From NCBI RefSeq assembly GCF_945915485.1, contig NZ_CAMEFJ010000008.1, positions 1 through 62,582 on the forward strand: a stretch of DNA of 62,582 nt, read 5' to 3'. Below the pieces are notes generated by a model, which did no database searches, was not told where the DNA came from, and saw only the letters and a program-made list of their open reading frames with translations. Every line of letters begins with the position of its first letter. Within the stretch, counting starts at the first letter, position 1. A program made the position numbers and the translations under genes. The stretch is from an uncultured Agrococcus sp. (GTDB lineage: Bacteria; Actinomycetota; Actinomycetes; Actinomycetales; Microbacteriaceae). Below, in pieces: positions 8,786 to 26,724 of the stretch.

Positions 8786-8799
8786 GGGGAGTTCTCCCC
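8786..8799. promoter_or_regulatory. Palindromic operator 1, GGGGAGTTCTCCCC
   Basis: Perfect inverted repeat GGGGAG-TT-CTCCCC, flanked by A and T that extend the symmetry. A TACGAT box starts 24 nt downstream (8824-8829), placing the palindrome at or just upstream of the -35 position of a promoter for the 8871-13236 operon. Four identical 14-mers occur elsewhere in the window. Confidence 0.8.
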
Positions 8800-8870
8800 T
8801 GTGCGCTTTCGGTGAGGTGACCATACGATGGTGAAGAACGACCGATCGTGTAGGGAAGGAACAGGCTCAC

Positions 8871-9173
8871 ATGGCTGGAGATGTCGATATTCCTTTCTCG
8901 TCGATGCAGACACTTTCGAACTCCCTGACCCGGATTATCGCCGAGTTCGATGATGCGGACGAGAGGACGACAGAACTGCTCGATGCTATCGATCGACCCC
9001 AGGATCGGGGCGAGCTCCGAGACGCTGCTGAAGATTTCGAGTCTCGCTGGGATGACAAACGCGAGACGCTGCGGCGCAAGCTCGAGAGCCTCCTGGAACG
9101 AGTCGACGAGACGAAGAGTGCTTGGGAAGAGTTGGATCTCGAGTTGCAGCAGATGCAGGAGAGTAGCGAATGA
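8871..9173 (+). CDS. Small helical WXG100/Lap-like partner protein, module A
   Basis: 100 residues, entirely helical in character, ATG preceded by GGAAGGAA. It has a central hinge FESRWDDKRETL comparable with the WxG turn of WXG100 proteins, and the last helix is charged. Homologous in pattern to the products at 14207 (FESRWSGKRRQL) and 26725 (FADNWDDTRGRF). Each is the first gene of a module and overlaps a large LXG-like gene by an ATGA-type junction. In characterised Firmicutes T7SS, small helical proteins upstream of LXG toxins act as targeting partners (Lap proteins); the same role is inferred here. Transcribed from the promoter with palindrome 1. Confidence 0.75.
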   Translation: MAGDVDIPFSSMQTLSNSLTRIIAEFDDADERTTELLDAIDRPQDRGELRDAAEDFESRWDDKRETLRRKLESLLERVDETKSAWEELDLELQQMQESSE

Positions 9174-10396
9174 GCAGAGCGGAATCACAGTACCTGCGAA
9201 CGACTCAGCCCGAGACGGATGGCGAACGCACAGTAGAGAATATCGTGGGGGATCACGCGACAATCCTTCGTCGCGGTCGCAACATCGAAACACTCGGCAA
9301 CCTGATGCAGCAAGCAGCGACCACCCTTGAGGGATTCGCGGATGGAAGCCTCGGAGCCGGGCTCTCGATCGACGGAATCCGCAAGGACGCAAAAGATGTT
9401 TACGAGGACCTCGACATCGCCGGAAAGTTGTACACTCCGAGCGGGGCCGCTCTCAAGGTGTACGCGGGCGCCTTGCGCGATGTGCAGAATGACACCGACT
9501 CCTTGGTTACGAATTCGGAATCGACCTGGGAAGAGGTCCGCGAGGCCGCAATTGCTCTGAACTCTGCAGTCAGCGACCAAGAGACCTTCGACGAGCGAGC
9601 CGACAACGCGGACTCAGGGGAGGACCTCGGAGACCGCCCCAGCTCGACAAGTGAAAGAACTCGATTCGACACTGCAGTGAGCGAGTGGGAATCGTACTGG
9701 GGCGCCTACGACGCTCCTGTCAGCGACTGGGAGTCGGCCTACAGCACGGCCGTCGCCAGCCTCGAGCAGGCCAATGAATCCGGCCCAGAGGATGGCTTCT
9801 GGGATAACGCCATGCCGTTCATCGAGGGCCTCCTGACGGTGCTTACGTGGATCGGTGTCATCGCGTTCGTGCTTTGCTTCTTCTTCACCGGTCCCCTGCT
9901 AGCGGTGTTCGCTGCCATCGCGCTCGTCGCGGGCATTATCGTCGTCCTGCTGGAAGCATCCAAGTTCCTTGCCGGGCGCGGTGATGTGCTGAGCCTGTGT
10001 CTTTCGATCGTCGGCGTCGTGCCGTTTGCCAAGCTCGCCACGCTCGGCAAGCACATCAAAGCGCTACCCACTGGGAAGTTCACGGGCGCGATGCGCCATT
10101 TGGGTTCGGATCTCGGGGATGGGCTGAGAGCGTTCCGGGGCATGAACCCGCGCATTTCCGGATTTCTGCCCTCGCTACCGTTTGAACTGGGCATTGCAGG
10201 AGTGGGGCACTTTCTCGTGAGGAACACCCCGACGCTGATTCGCGGTAACCGTGCTCGATGGCAAGAGCTAGCGGGCTTCCCCGGAGGTCCGAGCAACCTT
10301 GTAGAGGCGCTCGCCGGTGTCGCGGATGCGGGCGGTGGCGTGCTCGGGACGCTTGACGGCATTCTCAGCCTCAGCAATCAAGGTCGGCATTCCTAG
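9170..10396 (+). CDS. Large LXG-like T7SS cargo/membrane protein, module A
   Basis: 408 residues, overlapping the upstream gene by 4 nt. Residues ~1-215 are an elongated helical region rich in Trp/Glu (WESYWGAYDAP, WESAY), typical of LXG/WXG-type T7SS substrates. Residues ~218-262 are two hydrophobic membrane segments. The C-terminal ~140 residues are Gly-rich and of unknown fold (PFAKLATLGKHIKALP). It shares architecture and short patterns (YTPSGAALKVY versus YAPTGLHIRSY) with the product at 14530. Its C-terminus carries no motif I recognise, so toxic activity is only a possibility; it could also be a pore-like or structural T7SS protein. Confidence 0.65.
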   Translation: MSRAESQYLRTTQPETDGERTVENIVGDHATILRRGRNIETLGNLMQQAATTLEGFADGSLGAGLSIDGIRKDAKDVYEDLDIAGKLYTPSGAALKVYAGALRDVQNDTDSLVTNSESTWEEVREAAIALNSAVSDQETFDERADNADSGEDLGDRPSSTSERTRFDTAVSEWESYWGAYDAPVSDWESAYSTAVASLEQANESGPEDGFWDNAMPFIEGLLTVLTWIGVIAFVLCFFFTGPLLAVFAAIALVAGIIVVLLEASKFLAGRGDVLSLCLSIVGVVPFAKLATLGKHIKALPTGKFTGAMRHLGSDLGDGLRAFRGMNPRISGFLPSLPFELGIAGVGHFLVRNTPTLIRGNRARWQELAGFPGGPSNLVEALAGVADAGGGVLGTLDGILSLSNQGRHS

Positions 10397-10398
10397 CT

Positions 10399-11037
10399 GT
10401 GGGCATGGGAGGAAGTCTGCGAGCGGAATTGGTCAGTGGATCCGCTGATCGACCGAGCTTCGCCGTTCTCCTGCCCGACGGTTGGCGGTTCGACGAAGGT
10501 GACGCCGACCGATTCCACGAAGAAGTGTTGTCCGCGGTGGAGGATCTCCCTCCGGATGTGAAGCGTGCTCTCGAACCAGGCGTCCGCCAGATGGTGCAAC
10601 AGGCGAAGACTGCCCCAGGTAGCTCGCGCGTTGAACTGGCCGGAGTCATCCGCCAGGTGGAGGCGCCCGAGGATCAGTTCGTACCGATGAGCTTGACAGT
10701 CCACTGGTTTAGACCGCCGACCGGGGCAACCGTGCAGGCGTTCGGCCTTCGAATGATGGAGACGCGAGAAGCCAGGCCGCTCGAGGGTTCCTCCGGAGTG
10801 CTGCGTTGGATGGAGTCAGCTACGGTCGCTTCGGATGGTGAGAGCGGCGAGTTCGGTGGGCCCACGTATCTGATTCCTATCGAGGGAAACAAGCATCTGG
10901 CGCTCCTGATTCGCACGGTGCTGCCCATGCCCGAGCACCCCGATGCGAACATGGACTTCGTGCGAGAGTCGCTCTTCTTGCTGAGCGATTCGATCGTCAC
11001 GACACTACGATGGAAGCGTGAAGCAGTTCAGTCTTGA
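10399..11037 (+). CDS. Unassigned protein of the ~210-residue 'LPxGW' family, module A
   Basis: 212 residues from GTG directly after the LXG-like gene; an in-frame ATG two codons later is equally possible. It begins with FAVLLPDGWRF and ends with YLIPIEGNKHLALLIRTV and a TLRWKRE tail. The protein at 15766 has the same beginning (FRMAVPEGWIAF) and end (YLIPIPGAKRSRALQLV...TFAWEK), so they are homologues in the same place of each module. No signal peptide or membrane segment. Position suggests a chaperone, adaptor or immunity-like role for the upstream cargo; I do not recognise the family. Confidence 0.6.
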   Translation: MGMGGSLRAELVSGSADRPSFAVLLPDGWRFDEGDADRFHEEVLSAVEDLPPDVKRALEPGVRQMVQQAKTAPGSSRVELAGVIRQVEAPEDQFVPMSLTVHWFRPPTGATVQAFGLRMMETREARPLEGSSGVLRWMESATVASDGESGEFGGPTYLIPIEGNKHLALLIRTVLPMPEHPDANMDFVRESLFLLSDSIVTTLRWKREAVQS

Positions 11038-11578
11038 AGCCGACCCGGAGTTCTGGACACAAGTCGAGCCGGGTACGGAGCAGGAGGAATTCTTCGCTCT
11101 CTGGGCCGACGTTCCGAACACTCCTTGGAAAGCGATGCTGCATCACCATGGAGGCTACGCTCTCTCCTCGGCGAACGATCTCGGCAGTACCACGTGGTTG
11201 CTAAGTGATGAGCAGCTTGGCATTGCTGCCGCGGTCGTCCCGGTGTCCGCGGATGGCCCGGAGGTCGTGCATGACGCCGCCCACGCCGTCGATCTCGTGA
11301 ATCGACTCATGGGCCCCGGCATCGCCGAGCCCATAGTGACCGAGGCGATGTTCGGTGAGTTGGACGGATTCGCGGTAACGCACATCCACGAGCTTCCTGA
11401 TTGGTTGCGGCAGGAAGCGGGCGAGTCTGACCTGCAGTTGCTGCAGACGATCTTCGTGGCCGCCGACGGACACGGCACCGTCTACTTTGCGGCGATTTCT
11501 CCGCAGCTGTCTAATGTTGCCGGTCACGTGCTGATACCCATTGCGGCAGCGTTGCAGACGGCAGCGTGGCATGACTGA
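11018..11578 (+). CDS. Unassigned soluble protein, module A
   Basis: 186 residues from GTG, starting 20 nt before the previous stop, so tightly coupled. No membrane segment, signal peptide or catalytic motif is evident; the sequence alternates short hydrophobic strands with acidic helices (GIAAAVVPVSADGPEVVHD, FVAADGHGTVYFAAI). It occupies the place held by the product at 16383 in module B, although similarity between the two is weak by eye. Its stop overlaps the start of the next gene. Function unknown. Confidence 0.6.
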   Translation: MKQFSLEADPEFWTQVEPGTEQEEFFALWADVPNTPWKAMLHHHGGYALSSANDLGSTTWLLSDEQLGIAAAVVPVSADGPEVVHDAAHAVDLVNRLMGPGIAEPIVTEAMFGELDGFAVTHIHELPDWLRQEAGESDLQLLQTIFVAADGHGTVYFAAISPQLSNVAGHVLIPIAAALQTAAWHD

Positions 11579-12371
11579 GCATGACCCGTCGGTGTCGAAG
11601 CGATCCCACGCCGAGCCCGGCCCTGCTGAGCTGTCGTTTCAGGATCTAGGCGTGCATGGATTCACAGCCGACGCGCACCGAACAGCAGAAGAGTTCGCCG
11701 CTGATCACGCGCTGGAGATCACGACCTTACGCGAGGACGTGGAGGGTGCCTTCCGGCAGGGCGGGCCGCTCCGTATTCTTTCGTTCGTGATTCTGGTTCC
11801 GTCGGTGTTCCCGCTCTTTGGTCAGACCCATTACCGTCTCGCCGGCGGCGGGTTCGAAGTGCACGGCATGATCGCCAGTTATGTGTGCGCGCTGATGATG
11901 GCTGCTGTTCTCGCCGTCTCTCGCGGCCGACCGTTCGATAAACACACGCTCGGGATCTACCGATGGGTTGCCTTCGCGTGTGCGGCGGGCGCGGGGCTCG
12001 CATGGTGGAACGCCGGAGCACAGCTTTTGACGTGGCCTTTCACGATTGCTGCGATGCTCGTTGCAGCGTCATGGCTTGTGCTCGAGATGCAGCGACTGCG
12101 GCATCCGGATGTCGCCAAACTCCGGGAAGAAGACGCCATGGATCGCGCGGAGTTCCTGCGGCGCTCACTTCATGAAGAGCTACGCAAGTCTGTCCGACCT
12201 CCGGCCGCAACGTTGATCGAGCAAGCCTCGGAAAGATTCGCAGAACTCGCCGGAGCGGGTGGCTCGACGGGTGTTGCCGAAGCGCTGTTCTCAGAGGTCG
12301 TAGAGCGCACTGTTCCGATGCCCACGCAGCGGACGTTTGCCGAGGACAACGCCGCGAAACGTCGGAACTGA
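11571..12371 (+). CDS. Four-segment membrane protein, module A
   Basis: 266 residues; ATG overlaps the preceding stop. A ~60-residue acidic cytoplasmic head is followed by about four hydrophobic segments (ILSFVILVPSVFPLF, ASYVCALMMAAVLAV, WVAFACAAGAGLAW, TIAAMLVAASWLVL) and a charged ~95-residue helical tail. The product at 17127 has nearly the same length (265) and topology and sits at the same place in module B. Probably a module-specific membrane component accompanying the LXG-like cargo; function unknown. Confidence 0.6.
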   Translation: MTEHDPSVSKRSHAEPGPAELSFQDLGVHGFTADAHRTAEEFAADHALEITTLREDVEGAFRQGGPLRILSFVILVPSVFPLFGQTHYRLAGGGFEVHGMIASYVCALMMAAVLAVSRGRPFDKHTLGIYRWVAFACAAGAGLAWWNAGAQLLTWPFTIAAMLVAASWLVLEMQRLRHPDVAKLREEDAMDRAEFLRRSLHEELRKSVRPPAATLIEQASERFAELAGAGGSTGVAEALFSEVVERTVPMPTQRTFAEDNAAKRRN

Positions 12372-12585
12372 CCGTTTCACCTTCGAACGGCACGGCCGTC
12401 ACTCTTGTCATCGTCACGTATCTGACTCTGGTGCCAACTGTCGAAAGGCGGACATGCCGGAGTTCACGGGTCGGTTGACGTCCAGGAGGGAGGCGGTAGA
12501 CGGTGACTACAATCGACAGATGCATGCTGTCTTGGACGTTCGCGTGAGTTCCATGGGATGGCTGAAACCTCCGGAGGAATGAACT

Positions 12586-13236
12586 ATGCCGTCGGAATCG
12601 AACGAGAGCGAATCGAGGTCGCGGCTGATCATCCTTGGGCAGGAGCCTGAAACTTCGAATCGGATCTTCGCGTTCAATCCGGTGCTTGCTGCTTTTCCGG
12701 GGCCTTGGCGATACAGCCGCTCGCCCGTGCTCGGCGTTCTCTTGTTCGTCGTCGGTGTCGCGATGCTGATCGCGGATGTTGCCTGGTTCGCTCTGGATCT
12801 CTTTGCATTGGTTCCGGACAGGGACATGAACCACAGGTTGGCGTTCGCGTTCGTTGCGCTTGTTGTCGCCGGCGCCTTCATTGTTGCCGGAAGAGTTCTG
12901 CAGCGGGGAAGATTGCGGGACAGTGAGAGCGGAAAGCGCGTCAAAGAGGACACGTTCAATTTGGCCGGGTCCACTGAACTCGGTCAAGAGCTGCATGACG
13001 GGCTTCGAGTCGGCAAGGTAACGCAGCGTAAGCTTCTCAGCGGTGGTACCGGTGGTTGGAAACACGACTGCTTCGTGCGTGTCTACCGTTTTCCCGAGTT
13101 GAGCAGGGTAATAGCTACGGTGCATTTCGTGAGTGATGAAGGCGTGCACGTATGGCCGCCGCTGGGCATCACCCCCGAGTACGCGGACGAACTCACGGTC
13201 CGTGGGCACTCCGAGGCGAACATCAGTTACACCTAG
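12586..13236 (+). CDS. Two-segment membrane protein with conserved C-terminal domain, module A
   Basis: 216 residues, ATG after GGAGGAATGAACT. Two hydrophobic segments lie at about 45-70 and 82-103, followed by a ~110-residue soluble domain containing GGWKHDCFVRVYRF, FVSDEGVHVWPP and a final RGHSEANISYT. The relic at 17983-18321 is homologous to this C-terminal domain (GGWKQDLLLPLYT, VIDDGVLVWPP, GPDANYVG), so a full second copy once existed. It is separated from the preceding gene by 214 nt in which I see no gene. Function unknown. Confidence 0.6.
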   Translation: MPSESNESESRSRLIILGQEPETSNRIFAFNPVLAAFPGPWRYSRSPVLGVLLFVVGVAMLIADVAWFALDLFALVPDRDMNHRLAFAFVALVVAGAFIVAGRVLQRGRLRDSESGKRVKEDTFNLAGSTELGQELHDGLRVGKVTQRKLLSGGTGGWKHDCFVRVYRFPELSRVIATVHFVSDEGVHVWPPLGITPEYADELTVRGHSEANISYT

Positions 13237-13407
13237 CGGATCTCGTGCCTTGCAGTACACGAACCTTTCGGTGAGCGATGGAGAGAGTCTTTGGCAAACG
13301 CCGCAAGCGGAGTTCTTCCCCCTCCCGGGGGAAGATCAGGGATATGGACACCTCCCGCGGTCCTGACCTGGCAGTGTTGGAGCCGGCGATCCGTCACCTC
13401 AAGCTAA

Positions 13408-13602
13408 CAAAGAACCGCACGCTTTGAGCTCGTGGCGGCGCTTGCCGTTGAAGGTGTCATCGTGCGCCAGGAATTGAGCGCAGCTATCGATCAACTTGCA
13501 GTTCTGGATCTGATCTCGGCCGAAGAGCACGCCGCGGCGAAAAGGCTCGAGTTCGGAACGCTTGCGGCGACTCTTGGCACGAAACGCGAACGCCCTGCGG
13601 AG
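13408..13602 (+). pseudogene. Relic of the C-terminus of a module-B-type four-segment membrane protein
   Basis: An open stretch translating to ELSAAIDQLAVLDLISAEEH and ending LGTKRERP aligns with the C-terminal end of the gene at 17127 (ESLDGALDQLATDGLITPET, LGSDRPRP). Only the 3' ~60 codons remain, with no upstream membrane segments and no plausible ribosome binding site. It lies just before an operator-WXG100 unit, exactly where module B has its own relic. Confidence 0.65.
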
Positions 13603-13741
13603 GGGGTGGAATCACCAGGTGGGTGCTCTCTGAGTGCGGTCATGAACTGTGCAGGCCGACGCATCCCTGAGGCTGCAACCTGTCGCTTTGCGTGCACAGA
13701 AGGGAGATGCGGCCCCGTGAAAGCTCGGCGGTGATTGGCGA

Positions 13742-13755
13742 GGGGAGTTCTCCCC
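13742..13755. promoter_or_regulatory. Palindromic operator 2, GGGGAGTTCTCCCC
   Basis: Identical to operator 1. A TATCGT box follows at 13779-13784, 23 nt downstream, giving a promoter for the WXG100-like gene at 13841 and perhaps module B. Confidence 0.8.
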
Positions 13756-13797
13756 TTGGCAGTCGCTTGCGAGATTCGTATCGTGTTGTATGTAAGG

Positions 13798-13813
13798 GGC
13801 CCGGAGTCGGGCC
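13798..13813 (+). promoter_or_regulatory. 5'-leader hairpin of the first WXG100-like gene
   Basis: GGCCCG-gagt-CGGGCC stem in the untranslated leader, identical in the leader of the second copy. It may stabilise the mRNA. Confidence 0.5.
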
Positions 13814-13840
13814 GGTGTACACATTGAAGGGATGTGAACG

Positions 13841-14125
13841 ATGTCGGATTTCGGCGCCACGTATGACGAGATGGAGTCTGCTGCGAAGCAGTTGGACGAC
13901 GGTAAGGGCGAGATCGACGATCTGCTGGATAAGCTGCAGGGTTACGTTGATGACCTGGTGCAGGACGGCTTCAAGACGGAGAAGGCTTCTGGGAAGTTCC
14001 AGGAGGGCTACCAGGAGTTGACCGAGGGTATGAAGTCCGCCGCTGAGGGTGTGACGGATATGGCCGAGGGTCTGCGTCAGATGGCTCAGGCTATCCGCGA
14101 CCTGGACGACCAACTCGCCGGCTAG
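13841..14125 (+). CDS. WXG100-like secreted protein, copy 1
   Basis: 94 residues, two helices joined by a short turn; ATG preceded by GAAGGGATGTGAACG. The expected WxG turn is replaced by DGFKTEKASGKFQEGY, a variant without Trp. The tail (MAQAIRDLDDQLAG) has no obvious YxxxD/E export motif. WXG100 proteins form dimers that are exported by, and are needed for, the EccC/EssC motor. The protein is identical to that at 18442, and the DNA of the two copies, including ~50 nt of leader, differs at only about one coding position plus the stop codon. It has its own operator-type promoter and is followed by a hairpin. Confidence 0.85.
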   Translation: MSDFGATYDEMESAAKQLDDGKGEIDDLLDKLQGYVDDLVQDGFKTEKASGKFQEGYQELTEGMKSAAEGVTDMAEGLRQMAQAIRDLDDQLAG

Positions 14126-14133
14126 CAGTTTCC

Positions 14134-14171
14134 GGGTGCAGCCGCACCAGCAATCGGCTGCGGCTGCACCC
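14134..14171 (+). terminator. Hairpin after first WXG100-like gene (attenuator or mRNA-stabilising)
   Basis: Perfect 13-bp stem GGGTGCAGCCGCA / TGCGGCTGCACCC with a 12-nt loop. There is no T-run, so partial termination or 3'-end protection is more likely than full termination. This would favour high WXG100 output over module B. Confidence 0.55.
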
Positions 14172-14206
14172 TGTGACTGAACCAAGACAAGAAATGGGGT
14201 GCACTC

Positions 14207-14506
14207 GTGGCAGATGTGTTGATCAAATGGAGCTCGCTCTTGCGTCTGCAGGAGAACCTCTCGACCGTCATCGATGAATTGGAAGAGGCTCAGGACAACT
14301 CGAGTGCACTTGAGACCGCAATCGGTCATCCCTATGACAGGAGTGACTTGACGACGCTCACGGTCGACTTCGAGTCTCGTTGGAGTGGAAAACGGCGTCA
14401 GCTGATTCGCGACACCGAAAAGATCAAGGAGCACGTCGACGCTGTAGTCGAAGCGTTTCAGGAGTTCGACGATGACGCAGCGAGCCAGTTCGAGAACTCC
14501 CAATAG
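14207..14506 (+). CDS. Small helical WXG100/Lap-like partner protein, module B
   Basis: 99 residues from GTG (an ATG start is absent at this point), helical throughout, with hinge FESRWSGKRRQL that contains a true WxG (WSG). It resembles the products at 8871 and 26725 and likewise precedes an LXG-like gene, here by 23 nt. It follows the WXG100-like gene at 13841 and a hairpin, so it may be read through from operator 2. Role inferred: targeting partner of the cargo at 14530. Confidence 0.75.
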   Translation: MADVLIKWSSLLRLQENLSTVIDELEEAQDNSSALETAIGHPYDRSDLTTLTVDFESRWSGKRRQLIRDTEKIKEHVDAVVEAFQEFDDDAASQFENSQ

Positions 14507-14529
14507 CAGAGCACTGATCGAGGACTGAC

Positions 14530-15765: not shown

Positions 15766-16386
15766 ATGGGGAGTGAACTCAGACAGGAGCTCGGTGCGCC
15801 GCTGCTGCCGGACGTTCCGGCGTTCCGGATGGCGGTACCGGAGGGTTGGATCGCTTTCGCCGCTACGCCGGAGAACGAACGCGCGCTGCTGCAGCAGGCT
15901 TCGAAGCGGCTGATGCAGCAGCATCGCCCGGATCTCATGGCGGAAGTACAGGCGATGACAACGCAGAGCTTCAAGCGGCTTCGCTCCGAGCGCGGATTCA
16001 TGGTCGTCATGCCGGGTGATACGACCCCTGAGGAACTCTTCCTCCCCACTGCCATCCACGGTTCGGTGAGAGCGGCGACGGCCCAGTACACGCTCGATCA
16101 GGTAGTGAAGGGAGCGGTCGCTCGATGGGGAGCAAGGCCCCTCGATTCGAACAAGCAGATTGCTGCCTGGAGGCAAGAGGGCAAGATATCCGTGCAGGGC
16201 GAAGACGTATCGACCACGACGGCCGCGTACCTGATCCCGATCCCAGGAGCAAAGCGCTCGAGAGCGCTGCAGCTCGTTGCCGCATTCGTGCATCCCGATG
16301 AACGTGATCCAGATGACGATCTCATCGAGCAGTGGATCGACCTGATCGACGCCCACGTCGCCACATTCGCGTGGGAGAAGCCGTGA
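15766..16386 (+). CDS. Unassigned protein of the ~210-residue 'LPxGW' family, module B
   Basis: 206 residues, soluble. Starts with FRMAVPEGWIAFAATPENER and ends with YLIPIPGAKRSRALQLVAAF and a Trp-containing tail, closely paralleling the product at 10399 across its length. The next gene starts inside its stop codon (GTGA overlap), so the two are coupled. Located directly after the LXG-like gene in both modules; adaptor or immunity-like role is inferred only from position. Confidence 0.6.
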   Translation: MGSELRQELGAPLLPDVPAFRMAVPEGWIAFAATPENERALLQQASKRLMQQHRPDLMAEVQAMTTQSFKRLRSERGFMVVMPGDTTPEELFLPTAIHGSVRAATAQYTLDQVVKGAVARWGARPLDSNKQIAAWRQEGKISVQGEDVSTTTAAYLIPIPGAKRSRALQLVAAFVHPDERDPDDDLIEQWIDLIDAHVATFAWEKP

Positions 16387-18341: not shown

Positions 18342-18355
18342 GGGGAGTTCTCCCC
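18342..18355. promoter_or_regulatory. Palindromic operator 3, GGGGAGTTCTCCCC
   Basis: Identical 14-mer; TAGTGT box at 18380-18385, 24 nt downstream. Drives the second WXG100-like gene. Confidence 0.8.
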
Positions 18356-18441
18356 TTTGCACGGTGAGTGGCTCGCTTCTAGTGTTGTGTATGTAAGGGG
18401 CCCGGAGTCGGGCCGGTGTACACATTGAAGGGATGTGAACG

Positions 18442-18726
18442 ATGTCGGATTTCGGCGCCACGTATGACGAGATGGAGTCTGCTGCGAAGCAGTTGGACGA
18501 CGGTAAGGGCGAGATCGACGATCTGCTGGATAAGCTGCAGGGTTACGTTGATGACCTGGTGCAGGACGGCTTCAAGACGGAGAAGGCTTCTGGGAAGTTC
18601 CAGGAGGGCTACCAGGAGTTGACCGAGGGTATGAAGTCCGCCGCTGAGGGTGTGACGGATATGGCCGAGGGTCTGCGTCAGATGGCTCAGGCTATCCGCG
18701 ACCTGGACGACCAGCTCGCCGGCTAA
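18442..18726 (+). CDS. WXG100-like secreted protein, copy 2
   Basis: 94 residues, identical to the product at 13841. The DNA is also almost identical from about 50 nt upstream of the ATG to the stop; I see one synonymous change (CAA/CAG near the end) and TAG versus TAA. Outside that segment the flanks differ apart from the operator. This copy appears monocistronic: own operator-type promoter, the same leader hairpin, and a strong terminator 17 nt after the stop. Near identity indicates a recent duplication or ongoing gene conversion. Confidence 0.85.
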   Translation: MSDFGATYDEMESAAKQLDDGKGEIDDLLDKLQGYVDDLVQDGFKTEKASGKFQEGYQELTEGMKSAAEGVTDMAEGLRQMAQAIRDLDDQLAG

Positions 18727-18742
18727 CTACCGCCAGATTTTC

Positions 18743-19228: not shown

Positions 19229-20167
19229 ATGACGACGAAAGCGCCGGAGCGGACGACGAAGACAAGGGAACGACAGCACCGCAGCGCACGACGGAAGCGG
19301 TCGCGTTGGAACTGGACGCTCTTCCTGCTGTTCGCGGGGCCGAACATCGGATTGATTCTGATGTTCATCTATTACCCGCTGATTGCGAACATCCGATTCT
19401 CGACGCTGAATTGGCGGCTCGGCTCAGACTCCGCGCAGTACATCGGCTTCGACAACTTCGTCCGATTCTTCACGTCGGATACCGGAGTCGAAGTGTGGCG
19501 AGTCACCGGTATCTTCACCATCGCAACCGTTATCGGTTCGATGGTGCTGGGGCTGCTCCTCGCCGTCGTCTTGAACCGCAAGCTCCCGGGGCGAACCGTC
19601 GTGCGCACCGCGGTGTTCTCGCCCTACGTGCTGTCCGGTGTCGGCGTCGGCCTCGTCTGGAGCTTCATCTTCGACCCGAACCTCGGTGTTCTCGGTCACG
19701 TGTTCCGCTTCTTCGGGCAGCGATCGCCCGAGTGGTTCCTCGATCCGGACCTTGCGCTCGTCATGGTCATCGTCGTATACATCTGGAAGAACCTCGGTTA
19801 CTGCGCCGTGATCTTCCTCGCGGGGCTGCAGTCGATCCCCGATGATCTGCTCGAGGCGGCGAGCATCGATAGAGCGGGGTCCGTGCGCCGATTCTTCAAG
19901 GTCGTGCTGCCGCTGCTGAGCCCCACGATGTTCTTCATCCTGATCACGAGCATCCTCAGCTCCATGCAGGCCTTCGACGTGCTGCGCATCATGACTCCGA
20001 CCGGCCACGGCACCAACACCATCCTCTTCGAGGTGTACCTGCAGTCGTTCGGCGCCTACCAGCGAGCCGGATACTCCGCGGCGATCTCCGTCGTGCTGTT
20101 CCTCGTGCTCTTCCTGATCACGGCCGTGCAGATTCGGTACGTCGAGCGGAAGGTGCACTACGCATGA
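19229..20167 (+). CDS. ugpA: ABC importer permease, UgpA/MalF type
   Basis: 312 residues from an ATG after CGGTATCGC; longer in-frame readings begin in implausible low-quality sequence. A basic cytoplasmic N-terminus is followed by six hydrophobic segments starting LFLLFAGPNIGLILMFIYYP. The cytoplasmic EAA loop (EAASIDRAGSVRRFFKVVLPLL) that contacts the ATPase is clear. The partner permease overlaps its end by ATGA. With the binding protein and ATPase downstream this makes a carbohydrate-uptake-1 family importer; the binding protein favours sn-glycerol-3-phosphate or glycerophosphodiesters, although another sugar cannot be excluded. Confidence 0.75.
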   Translation: MTTKAPERTTKTRERQHRSARRKRSRWNWTLFLLFAGPNIGLILMFIYYPLIANIRFSTLNWRLGSDSAQYIGFDNFVRFFTSDTGVEVWRVTGIFTIATVIGSMVLGLLLAVVLNRKLPGRTVVRTAVFSPYVLSGVGVGLVWSFIFDPNLGVLGHVFRFFGQRSPEWFLDPDLALVMVIVVYIWKNLGYCAVIFLAGLQSIPDDLLEAASIDRAGSVRRFFKVVLPLLSPTMFFILITSILSSMQAFDVLRIMTPTGHGTNTILFEVYLQSFGAYQRAGYSAAISVVLFLVLFLITAVQIRYVERKVHYA

Positions 20168-21009
20168 AGCGCGCGCTGAGGCCCAAAGACGTCTGGTCTG
20201 CCATCGCAGGCGGCTACATCCCCATGCTGTTGGCTCTGCTGATCATCGTGCTCCCGCTGCTGTGGATGGTGCTGTCGTCGTTCAAACCCGTCAGCGAAAT
20301 CGTCACGACGACACCCGGACTGCTGCCGGAAGACCCCACTTTCGCGAATTACGAGCAGGTCGCCAGCCGCGTACCGCTCGCGCAGGTATTCCTGAACAGC
20401 ATCATCACGACCGCAGTCGGAGCGACCATCAAAGTCTTCCTCGCGATCACGACGGCGTATGCGCTCGTCTTCATCAACGTTCGTTTCAAGAACCTGATCT
20501 TCCTCGGGATTCTCGTAGCGCTGATGGTGCCGCCAGAGGTTGCGATGCTGCCGAACTACTTGACGGTTTCCGGGCTCGGCGGACGAGATCAACTGTGGGG
20601 CATCATCCTGCCCGGGCTCGGCACGGCATTCGGCACCTTCCTGCTGCGGCAACAGTTCAAAACCGTTCCCTACGCGCTCGTGGAGGCCGCCGAACTCGAC
20701 GGAGCGGGCCACTGGAAGCGCCTCTGGCGGGTCATCGTCCCCGTCACGAAACCCACGATCGCAACGGTTGCGCTCGTCACGATCGTGAACGAGTGGAACA
20801 ACTTCCTGTGGCCGCTCATCATCATCGACTCGACGAACAAGATGACGCTCCCCGTCGGCCTCAATCTGCTCAACTCGATCGAATCCGACACCGCTACCTA
20901 CGGTGTTCTGATGGCGGGCGCCGTGCTCGTGATCGCGCCCGTGCTGATCGTTTTCGCCATGCTTCAGCGTTACATCGTTGCCGGCCTCACCCAGGGCGCC
21001 GTCAAGTGA
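20164..21009 (+). CDS. ugpE: ABC importer permease, UgpE/MalG type
   Basis: 281 residues, ATG overlapping the preceding stop. Six hydrophobic segments, and an EAA loop EAAELDGAGHWKRLWRVIVP followed by PTIATVALVTIVNEWNNFLWP, the typical MalG/UgpE C-terminal signature. Forms the heterodimeric membrane channel with the product at 19229. The binding-protein gene starts 29 nt later behind a perfect AAGGAGG, so it is probably translated much more strongly than the permeases. Confidence 0.78.
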   Translation: MKRALRPKDVWSAIAGGYIPMLLALLIIVLPLLWMVLSSFKPVSEIVTTTPGLLPEDPTFANYEQVASRVPLAQVFLNSIITTAVGATIKVFLAITTAYALVFINVRFKNLIFLGILVALMVPPEVAMLPNYLTVSGLGGRDQLWGIILPGLGTAFGTFLLRQQFKTVPYALVEAAELDGAGHWKRLWRVIVPVTKPTIATVALVTIVNEWNNFLWPLIIIDSTNKMTLPVGLNLLNSIESDTATYGVLMAGAVLVIAPVLIVFAMLQRYIVAGLTQGAVK

Positions 21010-21038
21010 CACTCTCTACAAACAAGGAGGAATCCCTT

Positions 21039-22385
21039 ATGTCCACCACGATCTCACCTCGCAGGCTTCGCCGCGGGATGGCCGCGGGCGCTGCCATCGC
21101 CGCTGCGAGCCTCGTGCTCACCGCATGCGGCCCCACAACCGGTGGCGGCGACGATAACGGAACCGATTCCGACATCGACTACTCGGACATCGAGCCGGCC
21201 GACTCGATCACCTTCTGGACGAACCACCCGGGCGGCTCGATCGACGTCGAGACCGAACTCATCGAGGCGTTCGAAGAGGAGACCGGCATCTCGGTCGACC
21301 ACGTCACCGCCGGAGCCAACTACGAAGAGGTCTCCGAACGCTTCCAGACGGCTCAGGCCTCCGGGGATGTCGGCGACGTCATCGTGCTCTCCGACGCCAC
21401 CTGGTTCCCGAACTACCTGAACGACTCGCTCGCGCCGCTCGACCCGCTGTTCGACGCGATCGACGCCGACACCGGCACGTACGTCGAAGCGCTCTACACC
21501 GACTACCTCTACGAGGACCAGCACTACGGTGCCCCCTTCGCACGCTCGACGCCGCTGTTCTACTACAACGCCGACCACTACGAGGCCGCAGGCCTCACGG
21601 ACGCACCCGAGACCTGGGACGAGATGCTCACGCACGCGCAGGCGCTTTCGGATGCCGATACCGGTGCTTCCCCCTTCGCTTTCCCACCCCAGGCCGAGTA
21701 CCCGGCCTGGACGATGTCGAACCTCGTGTGGAGCCACGGCGGCGCGTGGAGCGACGAGTGGGACTTCTCGTCGCTGACGAGCGACGGCACGATCGAGGCG
21801 CTGGAACTCGCGCAGGGCGTCGTCAACGACGATCTCGCCACCGTCGTCAGCGGTGACCCGGCGACCGACTTCTCCGCCGGTGCGATCAGCCAGGTCGTCG
21901 CATCGACGGGTTCGCTTGGCGGCATCCTCGAGACGGCCGACTTCGAGGTCGGCGTCGGCTTCCTGCCGCTCGGCCCGACAGGAGAGAACGAGGTCGTCCC
22001 GACCGGTGGTGCCGGCCTGAGCATCGCCGACAAGACGACGCCGGAGCGTCAGCTCGCTGCCGCCATGTTCATCGACTTCGTCACGAACGCCGAGAACACC
22101 GCAACGTTCTCGGCAGCCACCGGGTACCTGCCGGTACGCACCGACTCCGACATGAGCGAGGTCTACTCGGAGACCCCGGCGTTCGAGGTCGCCGTGAACC
22201 AGCTCGAGAACGCCCGTTCGCAGGACTTCGCGCGCGTGTTCCTGCCGGGTGGCGATCTGAACCTGTCGCAGGCGCTGCAGCGCATCCTGACGTCCGATGT
22301 CGACGTCACGGATGAGCTCGAGTCGCTGCAGGCGACACTGCAGGATCTCTACGACAGCGATCTCGCACCGTTGCTCGACGAGTAG
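21039..22385 (+). CDS. ugpB: ABC importer substrate-binding lipoprotein, UgpB-like
   Basis: 448 residues; twin-Arg-like/basic start, hydrophobic stretch and lipobox LTAC with Cys30, followed by a Gly/Asp linker. The mature part is a solute-binding fold with FARSTPLFYYN, VASTGSLGGI, GGAGLSI and ATGYLPVR, which parallel positions in E. coli UgpB (STPVLYYN, ASSGSL, GGASL, TGYLP). Anchored outside the membrane, it delivers ligand to the permeases. Ligand assignment to glycerol-3-phosphate or its diesters rests on this resemblance only. Confidence 0.72.
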   Translation: MSTTISPRRLRRGMAAGAAIAAASLVLTACGPTTGGGDDNGTDSDIDYSDIEPADSITFWTNHPGGSIDVETELIEAFEEETGISVDHVTAGANYEEVSERFQTAQASGDVGDVIVLSDATWFPNYLNDSLAPLDPLFDAIDADTGTYVEALYTDYLYEDQHYGAPFARSTPLFYYNADHYEAAGLTDAPETWDEMLTHAQALSDADTGASPFAFPPQAEYPAWTMSNLVWSHGGAWSDEWDFSSLTSDGTIEALELAQGVVNDDLATVVSGDPATDFSAGAISQVVASTGSLGGILETADFEVGVGFLPLGPTGENEVVPTGGAGLSIADKTTPERQLAAAMFIDFVTNAENTATFSAATGYLPVRTDSDMSEVYSETPAFEVAVNQLENARSQDFARVFLPGGDLNLSQALQRILTSDVDVTDELESLQATLQDLYDSDLAPLLDE

Positions 22386-22394
22386 AACATCGTT

Positions 22395-22420
22395 GGGGTC
22401 GGGTCGATGGGCCCGACCCC
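22395..22420 (+). terminator. Intra-operon hairpin after the binding-protein gene
   Basis: GGGGTCGGG / CCCGACCCC stem with an 8-nt loop, no T-run, 10 nt after the stop. Probably protects the 3' end of the abundant binding-protein message and reduces readthrough to the ATPase gene. Confidence 0.55.
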
Positions 22421-22502
22421 ACGAGCAACCGGTCACGCGGCAACTCGCTGCTGCACAGCACGAACCACCGCGATGACCTCATGAAGGAAGGAAGCACCCG
22501 AG

Positions 22503-23621
22503 ATGGACGTCACTCTCAGCGAAGTCGGGTTGAAATATCCCGGTGCCGACCGCAACGCGGTCGAGGACATCGACCTGCACATAACCGACGGCGAGTTCCT
22601 GGTGCTCGTCGGCCCCTCCGGTTGCGGAAAGTCGACGACACTGCGGATGCTCGCGGGCCTCGAACTGCCGACGGAGGGCACGATCTTCTTCGGCGAAGAA
22701 GACGTCACGACGACGCCGGCCGCCGAGCGCGACATCGCCATGGTGTTTCAGAACTACGCCCTCTACCCGCATATGACGGTGGAGAGCAACATGGAGTTCG
22801 CGCTGAAGAACACGCGTGTTCCGAAAGAGGAACGCAAGCGCCGCATCCTCGAGGCCGCGGAGCTGCTCGACATCGACCAGTACCTGAGCAGGAAACCGCG
22901 ACAGCTATCGGGCGGACAGCGTCAGCGCGTCGCGATGGGTCGTGCGATCGTGCGAAACCCGCAGGTCTTCCTCATGGACGAACCACTGTCGAACCTCGAC
23001 GCGAAGCTCAGGGTGCAGACGCGCACGCAGATCTCGCAGCTGCAGCGACGTCTCGGCGTCACGACGGTCTACGTGACGCACGATCAGACCGAAGCGATGA
23101 CCATGGGTGACCGCGTCGTCGTCATGAACGAAGGACGCATCGAGCAGATCGGCACGCCGAAAGAGCTCTACAACCGACCCGAGACACTGTTCGTCGCGAG
23201 CTTCATCGGCTCGCCGACCATGAACCTCCTGCCCGGCAGGGTCGAGTCCGACTCCGGAGGAGGGAAGCGCGTTCGCGTCGGCCGCAACACTCTGCCGGTT
23301 CCTGCCGGATTGCAGTTCGAACACGAGAGTGTCGTCGTCGGCGTTCGCCCCGAGGACCTCGTGCTCCCCGACAGCGATGCACTGGAAGACGCAGAACGCG
23401 AAGACCAGTTCACGATCAACATATCCCTCGTCGAATCCATCGGCTCGGACGTGTACGTCTACGGAACAGCAGGCGGCGCCGATGAGGAGTCCAGGGTCGT
23501 CGCGCGCATCGATAAAGACCTCGAGCCGACCGCGGGCGAGAAACTGACGCTCGCAGCGGATGCTCGAAGGGTGCTGTTCTTCGACGCCGAGACGGAAAAG
23601 CTCGTCGGATCGGGAGCGTAG
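22503..23621 (+). CDS. ugpC: ABC importer ATPase, UgpC/MsmK family
   Basis: 372 residues, ATG behind GAAGGAAGGAAG. Walker A GPSGCGKSTT, Q-loop VFQNYALYPHMTV, signature LSGGQRQRVAMGRAI, Walker B VFLMDEPLSNLD and switch His in YVTHDQTEAM are all present. A C-terminal regulatory TOBE-type domain (~240-372) follows (GSPTMNLLPGRV, VVGVRPEDLVLP). It energises the permease pair encoded upstream. MsmK-type ATPases may serve several importers, so it may not be exclusive to this operon. Confidence 0.85.
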   Translation: MDVTLSEVGLKYPGADRNAVEDIDLHITDGEFLVLVGPSGCGKSTTLRMLAGLELPTEGTIFFGEEDVTTTPAAERDIAMVFQNYALYPHMTVESNMEFALKNTRVPKEERKRRILEAAELLDIDQYLSRKPRQLSGGQRQRVAMGRAIVRNPQVFLMDEPLSNLDAKLRVQTRTQISQLQRRLGVTTVYVTHDQTEAMTMGDRVVVMNEGRIEQIGTPKELYNRPETLFVASFIGSPTMNLLPGRVESDSGGGKRVRVGRNTLPVPAGLQFEHESVVVGVRPEDLVLPDSDALEDAEREDQFTINISLVESIGSDVYVYGTAGGADEESRVVARIDKDLEPTAGEKLTLAADARRVLFFDAETEKLVGSGA

Positions 23622-23768
23622 ACAGCGCCCGCCCTCTGCGCTTCTGCCTCCGCTGGACGGAAGACGCACGCTCAGCGCTGCTTGACAGACGTTTCCGTTC
23701 TCGCACGGCCGGCGTCCTGGAGTAAGTCAACCTCTAAGCTGATGCGGAGAGCGATCGAAGGGGTGCAC

Positions 23769-24902
23769 ATGGCGGGATCACGAATTCGTCGGCGCCGCGC
23801 GGCAACCGGTCGTCGTGTCGCTCCCGATCGCGACCGCGCATCCCGGTGGCCGCTGTCGAACCCGTTCGCGTTCGGATTCCTGTTCGCGCTCGGCGCTCTC
23901 GCCGCGATCGTCCTCGGGCTCGCGGTCTCGAACCTGTCGACGGTAATGATCTCGATCGTGCTCGCACTTTTCGCGGCGCTGGGCCTCGATCCCCTCGTCG
24001 TGATGCTGGAACGCCGCGGCATATCCCGAGCGCTCGCGATCGTCATCGTCTACGTCTCGTTCGCGCTCATCATCGTCGGCATCCTGCTGCTCATCGTGCC
24101 GCAGGTGGTGCGGCAGATCGCGCAGTTCTTCGAGGATGCTCCCGGACTGATCGCCGACGTGCAGCGTGCGGACTGGTTCGCCTGGATGCAGGAGAACCTC
24201 GGCGATGCCATGGCGGGCAGCGTTGCGCAAGTGCACGACTTCATCACGAACCCCGGCAATATCGCAGCCATCAGCGGCGGCGTCCTGCAGGTGGGTGCCA
24301 CGATCGCCCAGACCGTTTCCGGTCTTGTCATCGTGCTTGTGCTGAGCCTGTACTTCCTAGCGGCACTGCCGCGGATGAAGCAGTCGTTCTACCGCCTCGC
24401 GCCCGCCTATTCTCGTGCGCGCGTCGCCGATCTCACCGAGAAGATCACGGGGTCGATCGGCGGTTACCTCATGGGCATGGTGATCCTCGCGACGCTGAAC
24501 GCACTGTTCGTGATGGTGCTGCACTTGGCACTGCAGCTGCCGTTCGCGCTGCTGCTGACGGTGCTCGCGTTCTGCATTACGCTCATCCCGCTGATCGGTT
24601 CTGTTCTCTTCTGGGCCATCGCATCGGTGCTCGCGCTCTTCACGAGCCCTGTCGTGGCGCTGGCGTTCGCGATCATCTATCTGCTCTACATGCAGCTGGA
24701 GGCGTACTGGCTGACGCCGAGGGTCATGAACCGCACCGTTTCGGTGCCCGGTTCGCTCGTGGTCATCGGTGCGCTCGTCGGCGGAACCCTGCTGGGGCTG
24801 CTCGGCGCTCTGGTTGCGATCCCCGTGACGGCATCGCTGCTGCTCATCCTGAATGAAGTCGTGATTCCCAAACAGGACGCCAAGAGACGCAAACGATCGT
24901 AA
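23769..24902 (+). CDS. AI-2E family (PerM-like) membrane protein
   Basis: 377 residues; ATG chosen because GAAGGGG stands 5 nt upstream. Basic N-terminal tail, two segments (FGFLFALGALAAIVLGLAV, VMISIVLALFAALGLDPLV), a soluble central helix region, then further segments with the conserved GSIGGYLMG and LEAYWLTPRVMNRTVSVPG. The family contains the proposed AI-2 exporter TqsA and Na+/H+ antiporter-like members, so transport role is likely but substrate unknown. Monocistronic; a T7SS operator begins 4 nt after its stop. A paralogue lies at 34863. Confidence 0.85.
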   Translation: MAGSRIRRRRAATGRRVAPDRDRASRWPLSNPFAFGFLFALGALAAIVLGLAVSNLSTVMISIVLALFAALGLDPLVVMLERRGISRALAIVIVYVSFALIIVGILLLIVPQVVRQIAQFFEDAPGLIADVQRADWFAWMQENLGDAMAGSVAQVHDFITNPGNIAAISGGVLQVGATIAQTVSGLVIVLVLSLYFLAALPRMKQSFYRLAPAYSRARVADLTEKITGSIGGYLMGMVILATLNALFVMVLHLALQLPFALLLTVLAFCITLIPLIGSVLFWAIASVLALFTSPVVALAFAIIYLLYMQLEAYWLTPRVMNRTVSVPGSLVVIGALVGGTLLGLLGALVAIPVTASLLLILNEVVIPKQDAKRRKRS

Positions 24903-24905
24903 CGA

Positions 24906-24919
24906 GGGGAGTTCTCCCC
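24906..24919. promoter_or_regulatory. Palindromic operator 4, GGGGAGTTCTCCCC
   Basis: Identical 14-mer; TACGCT box at 24944-24949, exactly 24 nt downstream. Promoter for the phosphatase-FHA pair of the second T7SS island. Confidence 0.8.
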
Positions 24920-24992
24920 GGTGCGAAGATCCGTACTCTGCCATACGCTCGTAAACGCCCGGTAAATAAGGCGGACGGATTGGGGACATCCC

Positions 24993-25817
24993 ATGGAGCA
25001 GGAAGTACGGGAGTTTCGTTATCACCACGACGCCGTCAGCCTGCGCTGGAGCGCCGTCACGCACGTGGGGATGCGGAGGCAGCTGAACGAGGACTCCTTC
25101 GATGCATCGTTTCCCGTCTTCCTCGTGGCAGACGGGATGGGCGGTCACGCTGCGGGCGACCGAGCGAGCACTCTCGCCCTGAGCGCGTTCGATCGACTCC
25201 ACGGCAGATCGCTTCCCGAGCCGTACCAGGTGGAGTCGGCCCTCGAACGGTCGTTCGCCGCAGTGCTCGGCTCGGGCGATGAGGGAGCCGGCACAACGCT
25301 CACGGGCGCCGTCGTCACGACAACGGGCAGCGGCATCTACTGGTACCTCGTCAACGTCGGGGACTCGCGCACGTATCTGCTGCAGGACGGTGTCCTCCGG
25401 CAGCTGAGCGTCGATCACTCGGTCGTGCAGGAGATGATCGAGTCGGGTGAGGTAACGCGTGAGGACGCAAGGAGCCATCCGCTGCGCAACGTCATAACGC
25501 GCTCCATCGGCGGTGGCCAGGTAACGCCTCCCGATACGTGGCTCACGCCGGTGCAGAGAAACCAGCGTTTGCTGGTCTGCTCCGACGGGCTCTCCGGTGA
25601 ACTCGACGACGAAGTGCTCGCGCGAGTCCTGCGCTCGCATCCTTCGCCGGCACACGCGACAGCAGAACTGTTGCGGCTTGCGCTGGCTTCCGGCGCACGC
25701 GACAACGTCAGCGTCGTCATCGTCGATGTCGATGCCGTCGATCAGGACGACACGGGCTGGCAGGACACCGATTTCGACCTCATGTTCGACACTGTGCCGC
25801 GTGGCGGTACGCCGTGA
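24993..25817 (+). CDS. PP2C-type Ser/Thr protein phosphatase (PstP/Stp-like), T7SS island 2
   Basis: 274 residues, soluble. Metal-binding motifs of PP2C phosphatases are visible: HVGMRRQLNEDSF, VADGMGGHAAGD, GAGTTLTGAVV, NVGDSRTYLLQDG and a final ARDNVSVVIVD. It should remove phosphate from Ser/Thr, and its promoter palindrome links it to the kinase island at 1-8.7 kb, so it is probably the eraser for that kinase. Unlike typical PstP it has no membrane segment. The stop overlaps the next FHA gene. Confidence 0.92.
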   Translation: MEQEVREFRYHHDAVSLRWSAVTHVGMRRQLNEDSFDASFPVFLVADGMGGHAAGDRASTLALSAFDRLHGRSLPEPYQVESALERSFAAVLGSGDEGAGTTLTGAVVTTTGSGIYWYLVNVGDSRTYLLQDGVLRQLSVDHSVVQEMIESGEVTREDARSHPLRNVITRSIGGGQVTPPDTWLTPVQRNQRLLVCSDGLSGELDDEVLARVLRSHPSPAHATAELLRLALASGARDNVSVVIVDVDAVDQDDTGWQDTDFDLMFDTVPRGGTP

Positions 25818-26644
25818 AGCTGTCGTTCGCACCCGGCAGGGCGTGGTGCATTGCGGGCGAGACCGCCGTCGCCGTGCTTGACCCGGATGCCCCGGTCGCC
25901 GACATCGACCGCGCCCACGACATCGTCGCCCACGGCGGCGGCGCAAGCGAACTCGCGGCCGCCATCGGGCAGAGCGCTCTCGCGGTGGTGTCCACGACGC
26001 ACGGCGTCAACACGCTCTTGCGTTACCGAGGAGTCCCGGCCGTCGTCGATGGCGAACCCCTGAACTCCTCCGGAACCGGTAACGGCGGGGCACCGGCGCC
26101 CGAACTGATCCCGGGGAGTCTGCTCGAACTGGGGAACACGGGATCGCTGGCAGCGGCTGCTCTGCCGTTCCTCGGCGGTGTCACTCGTGTCGCTTCGCTG
26201 CGGGTGACATTCGAGGTCGACGCGACGCCAGGAGTGGTTGCCAGAGCGGCAGAGGTAGGGGCGCCCGAAACCGATGAGCTCTCCGTCTTCACGAGCATCC
26301 CGGGCGACGGGCATCCGGCGCTGGTACTGCAGTCGGGGGAGCGCATCCCGCTCGACCGCGGTGTCCTGGTGGGTAGACGCCCCGAATCGGATCGGGTCGA
26401 CGGAGGGCGCCCTCCGCGGCTGGTGACGGTCGGGGGGCTGAGCATGGTGATATCCCGCACGCATCTGCGCGTCGAATCCACCCAGGGAGGGGTCATGGCG
26501 ACCGATCTCGGCTCCACCAACGGCACGACCGTCTCGCGGCCGGGAACCCTGACGCAGCGCTTGCGGGCCGATGTGCCAACGAGATTGCACGCGGGCGACA
26601 TTCTCGGGCTCGGCGACGGAGTTGCTATAGCGCTCAGCGATTGA
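25814..26644 (+). CDS. FHA-domain protein, T7SS island 2
   Basis: 276 residues from GTG overlapping the phosphatase stop. N-terminal domain MKLSFAPGRAWCIAGETAV resembles that of the product at 683; a linker follows; the C-terminal ~100 residues are an FHA domain (VLVGRRPESD, ISRTHLRV, LGSTNGT). Unlike its paralogue it has no Cys cluster. Presumably reads phosphothreonine marks controlled by the kinase/phosphatase pair. Operator 5 begins 10 nt after the stop, so the next module is a separate transcription unit. Confidence 0.85.
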   Translation: MKLSFAPGRAWCIAGETAVAVLDPDAPVADIDRAHDIVAHGGGASELAAAIGQSALAVVSTTHGVNTLLRYRGVPAVVDGEPLNSSGTGNGGAPAPELIPGSLLELGNTGSLAAAALPFLGGVTRVASLRVTFEVDATPGVVARAAEVGAPETDELSVFTSIPGDGHPALVLQSGERIPLDRGVLVGRRPESDRVDGGRPPRLVTVGGLSMVISRTHLRVESTQGGVMATDLGSTNGTTVSRPGTLTQRLRADVPTRLHAGDILGLGDGVAIALSD

Positions 26645-26653
26645 CCGCCACCA

Positions 26654-26667
26654 GGGGAGTTCTCCCC
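26654..26667. promoter_or_regulatory. Palindromic operator 5, GGGGAGTTCTCCCC
   Basis: Identical 14-mer; TAGGCT box at 26691-26696, 23 nt downstream. Promoter for module C. Confidence 0.8.
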
Positions 26668-26724
26668 TTGGTCGACGTGTCGGGCTTGCTTAGGCTGATC
26701 TCAAGAGCTGACCCGGGAGGAACC

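Follow-up and report, generated by a model that had tools for sequence, protein, structure and literature searches.

The type VII secretion system (T7SS) locus of an uncultured Agrococcus sp. raises the question of what a palindrome does that recurs, letter for letter, in front of its operons, and which protein reads it. The locus lies in the window, the whole stretch of 62,582 nucleotides that was analysed, which is one entire contig (NZ_CAMEFJ010000008.1, C8) of assembly GCF_945915485.1 (2.81 Mb, rated 86% complete). We propose that the palindromic 14-mer, GGGGAGTTCTCCCC, is the operator of a T7SS regulon common to many Micrococcales, with a related locus in Gordonia, and that it is read by the protein encoded at 3425-4135, acting as a class-II activator. 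We hold this reading to be probable, though well short of certain.

The original prediction, made from the letters of the window, described five identical palindromes at a fixed distance from a -10 box, always before a T7SS operon and nowhere else. All five exact copies were recovered at the same coordinates on the + strand, followed by the predicted TANNNT boxes TACGAT, TATCGT, TAGTGT, TACGCT and TAGGCT at 24, 23, 24, 24 and 23 nt, and the window holds no other exact copy. The sites and the promoters inferred behind them from the sequence are as follows.

8786..8799, + strand: palindromic operator 1, exact 14-mer with TACGAT 24 nt downstream, upstream of the WXG100-like gene 8871-9173
8801..8829, + strand: inferred promoter 1, -35 GTGCGC (8801-8806), 17-bp spacer, -10 TACGAT (8824-8829)
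13742..13755, + strand: palindromic operator 2, exact 14-mer, upstream of the WXG100 gene 13841-14125
13756..13784, + strand: inferred promoter 2, TTGGCA, 17 bp, TATCGT
18342..18355, + strand: palindromic operator 3, exact 14-mer, upstream of the WXG100 gene 18442-18726
18357..18385, + strand: inferred promoter 3, TTGCAC, 17 bp, TAGTGT
24906..24919, + strand: palindromic operator 4, exact 14-mer, upstream of the PP2C gene 24993-25817 and the FHA gene 25814-26644
24921..24949, + strand: inferred promoter 4, GTGCGA, 17 bp, TACGCT
26654..26667, + strand: palindromic operator 5, exact 14-mer, upstream of the WXG100-like gene 26725-26997 and the T7SS-signal gene 26997-28706
26668..26696, + strand: inferred promoter 5, TTGGTC, 17 bp, TAGGCT

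At all five sites a TTG- or GTG-type hexamer directly follows the palindrome, at an offset of 0 or 1, with exactly 17 bp between it and the -10 box. As the spacer is constant and the offset is not, the distances of 23 and 24 nt differ because the -35 moves by one base relative to the palindrome. In the window the palindrome would be centred at about -42.5 or -43.5 from the expected transcription start. It had been predicted to sit either at the place of a -35 element or at that of a class-II activator site; the latter position, near -42/-43, stands, while the former falls, because the separate hexamer 17 bp from the -10 leaves the palindrome beside the -35 and not in its place. By its letters the arrangement is that of a class-II promoter, with a site centred near -42 and abutting the -35, and dependence on an activator is predicted. 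The -10 assignment is supported by leaderless-looking genes behind the box, found among 15 of 135 first open reading frames (ORFs).

A scan of the assembly that allowed one mismatch, as the original prediction had proposed, returned 8 exact copies and neither a one-mismatch nor a reversed-control copy, where the base composition of the window would give 0.07 exact and 2.6 one-mismatch copies in 2.81 Mb. Three of the eight lie outside the window, at C26:4191, C48:7548 and C17:6010, so that 'nowhere else' holds for the window but not for the assembly. Six of the eight, one of them on another contig, precede T7SS-locus or T7SS-effector genes at a spacing of 23-24 nt. The copy at C26:4191, with TACGAT 24 nt away, leads a T7SS effector operon (L010 4191-6256) whose products are a WXG100_2 protein, a toxin (Ntox15) and an immunity protein of the GAD-like/Tdi1 type. 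The claim that the palindrome always precedes a T7SS operon is therefore true of this copy and the five window sites, but fails at the other two. At C48:7548, TACCTT stands at 34 nt, about one helical turn further, before a leaderless-looking gene of unassigned function, an arrangement that recurs in genome G012; at C17:6010 neither a -10 box nor a correctly oriented gene was found by eye. The C48 copy prompted a search for a second spacing peak at 34 nt, which was not seen among sites with the central TT (2 on the TT side of the palindrome, 3 on the AA side); among the sites with a central TG described below, 3 of 31 have a box at 34 nt. At both the C48 copy (L008) and the G012 one (L026) the site adjoins TGTGGATAA, a DnaA-box-like word.

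A separate observation concerns sites 2 and 3. The stretches 13787-14112 and 18388-18713 are an identical 326-bp block with identical WXG100 genes, upstream of which the spacer has diverged and the palindrome is identical again, the pattern to be expected if gene conversion halted at the -10 box while selection kept the operator.

Conservation among relatives was followed in draws that each count the window's own genome. The exact 14-mer occurs in 14 of 24 genomes of the genus, 42 of 299 of the family (1 reversed-control match) and 46 of 198 of the order (0 control matches). In the phylum draw it occurs in 16 of 296 genomes, 14 of them with a single site, against 4 reversed-control matches; outside the window's order the 14-mer is therefore close to background. 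Among 214 non-redundant sites, a set that includes loci chosen for ATCG, 94 have TANNNT at 24 nt and 47 have it at 25 nt, every other distance across 10-49 nt being represented by 0-3; at 22-26 nt the box is found on the TT side in 146 and on the AA side in 8. The spacing was hence recounted on 128 non-redundant plain 14-mer sites, where a box at 23-25 nt is found on the TT side in 65 and on the AA side in 7, compared with 6 and 2 at the control distances of 33-35 nt. The flanks of these 65 promoter-like sites mostly read AT before the palindrome (A 0.74, T 0.68) and AT after it (A 0.85, T 0.83), which extends it to 18 bp. A scan of named genomes with the 18-mer gave at least 117 stretches; the 80 titled ones comprise 74 from what we take, by such names as Microbacterium, Agreia, Brachybacterium, Knoellia and Arthrobacter, to be Micrococcales, 4 from Gordonia, 1 from an unplaced actinomycete metagenome-assembled genome (MAG) and 1 from an archaeal MAG. 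The sites of two genus genomes, G022 and G002, are identical to those of Agrococcus sp. Marseille-P2731 and Agrococcus baldri, which makes Agrococcus the probable genus of the window. As to the layout of individual loci, two copies of the site adjoin in head-to-head orientation in G427 (L278 7595-7622), where 28 bp form one inverted pair, and G441 (L269 8552-14700) has four sites in ~6 kb, of which three lead small genes of leaderless appearance.

As to the genes behind the sites, a profile made from 24 short first ORFs finds a WXG100-like ORF on the TT side of 57 of 132 promoter-like sites and on the other side of 1 of 132, the seeds being drawn from the same set and so favouring the TT-side figure; at non-promoter sites the counts are 6 of 83 and 1 of 83. 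Pfam matches in 134 first ORFs, chosen heuristically (135 less one identical protein), comprise WXG100 (51), WXG100_2 (26, with possible overlap), GerE (9), EspC-type (5) and PP2C (1); the remainder include lipoprotein-like, long and unassigned proteins, with long proteins lacking assigned domains at L057, L065 and L138. Conservation upstream of WXG100 genes had been named as a check, and it is borne out by a fixed distance from site to -10 box across many genera, with WXG100 genes downstream. Together with the effector operon off the contig, these results favour the earlier claim of a T7SS regulon governed through a class-II-type operator.

Not every site appears to lead a protein-coding gene. 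In 6 of the 24 genus genomes, site and -10 box stand before a conserved ~165-nt element ending in a terminator-like hairpin (L012 1291-1514 on the - strand, with counterparts at the corresponding position after the site in L013, L015, L018, L019 and L021). RNAalifold folded the six sequences with 50 pairs, of which 8 show changes in both partners, and Rfam gave no match in the element at gathering scores or at E<=1, its one match being a CRISPR repeat elsewhere in L013. The element is a candidate small RNA of this regulon. A second, C-rich element that by eye has two hairpins follows the site in L020 (G019) and L027 (G023).

The original prediction left the regulator nameless. A linked candidate can now be proposed, whose binding to the site is predicted: the gene at 3425-4135, directly upstream of the EssC/EccC-type ATPase gene. 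The T7SS genes of the window, the start of whose locus is cut by the contig end, are as follows.

99-665 and 683-1930, + strand: two FHA-domain genes (Pfam FHA)
1501..3432, + strand: Ser/Thr protein kinase, start codon uncertain (Pfam Pkinase, 1.4e-37)
3425..4135, + strand: candidate regulator of 236 aa, FHA-like N-terminal and LuxR/GerE-fold C-terminal part (alignment, AlphaFold2 model, Protein Data Bank matches, co-occurrence)
4172..8680, + strand: T7SS ATPase, EssC/EccC type, with N-terminal FHA (Pfam FHA and FtsK_SpoIIIE; TIGR03928 at E 1.4e-160, below that model's curated cut-off)
8871..9173, + strand: WXG100-sized protein, first behind operator 1 (sub-threshold WXG100/T7SS NCBIfam matches only)
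13841..14125, + strand: WXG100 protein, identical to 18442-18726 (Pfam WXG100, 3.9e-15)
18442..18726, + strand: WXG100 protein, the identical copy (Pfam WXG100, 3.9e-15; identity block)
24993..26644, + strand: genes for a PP2C phosphatase and an FHA protein behind operator 4 (Pfam PP2C, FHA)
26725..28706, + strand: WXG100-like and T7SS_signal genes behind operator 5 (weak WXG100; T7SS_signal at 3.8e-5, below cut-off)

The candidate gene and the site occur together. In the family draw, sites are found in 38 of 111 genomes with the regulator and 4 of 188 without it, and two or more sites in 16 of 111 versus 0 of 188. The order draw, which shares 12 genomes with the family draw, gives 35 of 74 versus 11 of 124, and 15 of 74 versus 0 of 124 for two or more sites; neither set of counts is independent of phylogeny. 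Collapsed by genus in a hand count, the order draw still gives 20 of 32 versus 6 of 41 (p 5e-5). The association also persists among T7SS-positive genomes, defined by an EssC/EccC match at E<=1e-60 (132 of the 198 order genomes): the site is present in 30 of 65 with the regulator and 9 of 67 without (p 4.8e-5), and two or more sites in 14 of 65 versus 0 of 67. Nine genomes have the regulator and no such ATPase match, and five of these have the site. The nearest site lies 4.4-4.9 kb from the regulator in 15 of 28 genomes picked by hand for having both on the same contig, a stretch that the EssC gene takes up in the window.

The central two bases of the palindrome vary between lineages, so that the TT is not fixed. 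In the 39 genomes with the regulator and without an exact site, many one-mismatch matches differ solely at the centre (TG, TC, GT), and among the matches listed several such sites lie immediately 3' of EssC (G324, G338, G379, G492, G496). One-mismatch totals alone do not separate the groups, because 39 T7SS-positive genomes without the regulator are also rich in such matches (20 in G362). Counted as an exact word in the 198 order genomes, GGGGAGTGCTCCCC occurs in 27 of 74 with the regulator and 11 of 124 without (p 3.7e-6), and at two or more sites in 11 of 74 versus 0 of 124; of the 31 such sites that were read, 9 have TANNNT at 24-25 nt. TT and TG sites taken jointly are present in 45 of 74 versus 19 of 124, and at two or more places in 27 of 74 versus 3 of 124. 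Among 13 genomes picked for a site near EssC, 11 have it 18-119 bp past the ATPase match.

As to the protein itself, the AlphaFold2 model combines an FHA fold with a LuxR-type DNA-binding fold, and both the model and its matches in the Protein Data Bank are consistent with an FHA domain followed by a tetrahelical LuxR/GerE domain. Its weak Pfam matches are HTH_8 (E 0.11) and HTH_24 (E 0.14), while a search of solved structures by sequence returned four weak, unrelated matches. Alignment with the Gordonia-type proteins gives 46-51% identity. Compared by eye with another FHA protein of the window, which has the motifs SRxH and TNGT, the candidate keeps GR and has YLHRHF for SRxH and GSRLSA for TNGT. 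As most of the phosphothreonine-binding residues thus appear to be replaced, the domain may sense assembly of the machine through protein contact rather than phosphothreonine. In-frame stops were reported in four regulator genes (G457, G431, G292, G095), of which the G457 gene reads open throughout on inspection. In G457 the site leads a same-strand run of genes ending in the regulator, which suggests that the regulator is autoregulated there.

In the mechanism proposed, a homodimer of the FHA/LuxR-fold protein would most likely bind GGGGAG-N2-CTCCCC (~18 bp with the flanking AT..AT). Bound at about -42.5 to -44.5, it would recruit the housekeeping RNA polymerase by contact at the -35, in class-II fashion, to promoters with a weak -35 abutting the site and a TANNNT -10 box. 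The WXG100 substrates, the effector/immunity operons and the accessory PP2C/FHA genes would be switched on together, and the FHA-like domain probably makes this activation depend on the state of the machine or on the linked kinase and phosphatase.

Several results weigh against this proposal. Two of the eight copies in the organism's own genome (C48:7548 and C17:6010) do not fit the pattern. Frequent occurrence ahead of unrelated genes or within coding regions had been named as counter-evidence; the window's genome does not show it, but in relatives 63 of the 128 plain 14-mer sites lack TANNNT at 23-25 nt. Further, 29 of 74 genomes with the regulator have no exact TT or TG site, and among the 124 without the regulator such a site is present in 19 and occurs more than once in 3. 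Co-inheritance of the regulator as a T7SS-locus gene could yield part of the correlation, and the genomes are not independent. The model of the regulator has a predicted template modelling score (pTM) of only 0.46. Pfam FHA and GerE (PF00196) do not match the protein at E<=5, a scan that is incomplete above 0.1, where HMMER filters drop most matches. In plain Foldseek the top two rows are unrelated enzymes (TM 0.15), with FHA domains from rank 3, and none of the quorum-sensing LuxR proteins to which a second structure comparison matched the model is among the 50 best rows; the LuxR match comes from that second comparison. Finally, the candidate's orthologue is present in 11 Gordonia or Gordonia-like loci (4 named, 7 judged by sequence), but the gene behind the site encodes a small GerE (LuxR) protein instead of a WXG100 protein in 9 of the 11, the other two being cut short.

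The last point bears on the first alternative, in which operator and regulon are real but the reader is another protein, for example a LuxR/NarL-type response regulator, and the FHA/LuxR-fold protein is a co-inherited T7SS component. The extended site, TGGGGAG-TT-CTCCCCA, has the 7-2-7 form known for NarL-type sites, the genome has 20 GerE-domain matches, and in Gordonia-type loci the small GerE gene is the first behind the site. However, this GerE protein has no match at E<=1e-9 in the window's genome (G000) or in the site-rich G327, G427 and G441, and was rejected as a shared reader; a home-made five-HTH profile found GerE-type genes only in Gordonia-type loci, among the loci searched; and the association of the FHA/LuxR-fold gene with the site persists among T7SS-positive genomes. 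We consider a different reader unlikely. A pair of large LuxR proteins on contig C23, also considered, adjoins a surface-type protein, with no T7SS gene among the genes read there.

A second alternative keeps both protein and site and turns the action into repression. Activator sites usually lie upstream of or adjoining the -35, whereas repressor operators more often overlap the -35/-10 or the start; here the site is upstream of, and adjoins, a weak -35 at a fixed distance, which is activator geometry. We infer activation from this geometry only. In the available part of PMC7002343, EspM, the nearest characterised T7SS regulator found with FHA and helix-turn-helix (HTH) domains, represses whiB6, and the candidate might act likewise, which we regard as doubtful. 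Still less probable, by far, is that an alternative sigma factor recognises the palindrome as its -35 element: its distance to the -10 is fixed, but at 23-25 nt exceeds the spacing of a -35 element, a separate -35-like hexamer stands 17 bp from the -10 at all five window sites, and the site is symmetric. Chance or a copied repeat of duplicated promoters is scarcely credible, since each of the five sites has its own sequence between palindrome and -10, although the WXG100 genes that follow sites 2 and 3 are an identical duplication, and the 14-mer exceeds its expected number in the genome (0.07) and recurs in the family (42 of 299 genomes, 1 reversed-control match) with its spacing conserved among relatives.

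The preferred reading, an activator of FHA/LuxR fold acting at this operator, may be set beside known systems. TraR/LuxR-type class-II activators, whose sites are ~18-bp palindromes abutting the -35 near -42, appear from the model to share the DNA-binding fold of the candidate, which has an FHA-like domain in place of the autoinducer-binding domain. The closest functional relative found is EspM (Rv3863/MMAR_5438) of mycobacterial ESX-1, which likewise has an N-terminal FHA and a C-terminal HTH domain and regulates T7SS genes, but, in the accessible parts of the sources, binds the whiB6-espM region, represses whiB6 and has a larger C-terminal half (PMC7002343, PMC11005418). The window protein would share the EspM architecture by predicted fold only: the NCBIfam EspM model NF052403 matches neither it nor the Gordonia orthologue at E<=1, and the word 'palindrome' is absent from the main text of PMC7002343 as available. 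The available part of a census catalogues FHA+LuxR proteins of Rhodococcus and Nocardia through a recognisable LuxR_C domain and gives no T7SS role for them (PMC3466318); the pair of domain types is the same, the comparison going no further than types, whereas neither Pfam model matches the window regulator. The machine itself resembles the T7SSd of Actinomycetota: the window locus combines an ATPase with N-terminal FHA, a WXG100 protein and a Ser/Thr kinase (PMC11217815, as available). That part of the article counts a large immunoglobulin-like TsdI and a small TsdH among T7SSd components, and describes no transcription factor for T7SSd, the sole one found there being TsiN of T7SSi. Searches of a library of open-licence papers found neither a regulator nor an operator described for an actinobacterial T7SS of this type, and a letter search for the 14-mer gave one unrelated paper.

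Among the neighbouring genes, the proteins at 10399-11037 and 15766-16386 share an LPDGW/VPEGW motif, and Pfam matches neither of them above its cut-off. A similar motif can be seen by eye in the first genes that follow sites at L146, L154, L180, L188 and L282, and these proteins are possibly an undescribed T7SS accessory family.

Collectively, a near-invariant operator that can be scanned for in genomes, together with a linked candidate for its reader, opens the question to direct testing, and the operator allows T7SS substrates and effector operons to be predicted at a distance from the locus, as on contig C26. The system would parallel EspM and be built from different parts. In its widest form, on which we are evenly divided, the finding would mean that an undescribed FHA/LuxR-fold master activator is dedicated to a T7SSd-like system across the Micrococcales, and to a linked gene in Gordonia, and that through an operator near-unchanged over several families it couples the state of the machine, or kinase/phosphatase signalling, to the WXG100 proteins, the effector/immunity operons and, in the window's genus, a structured small RNA.

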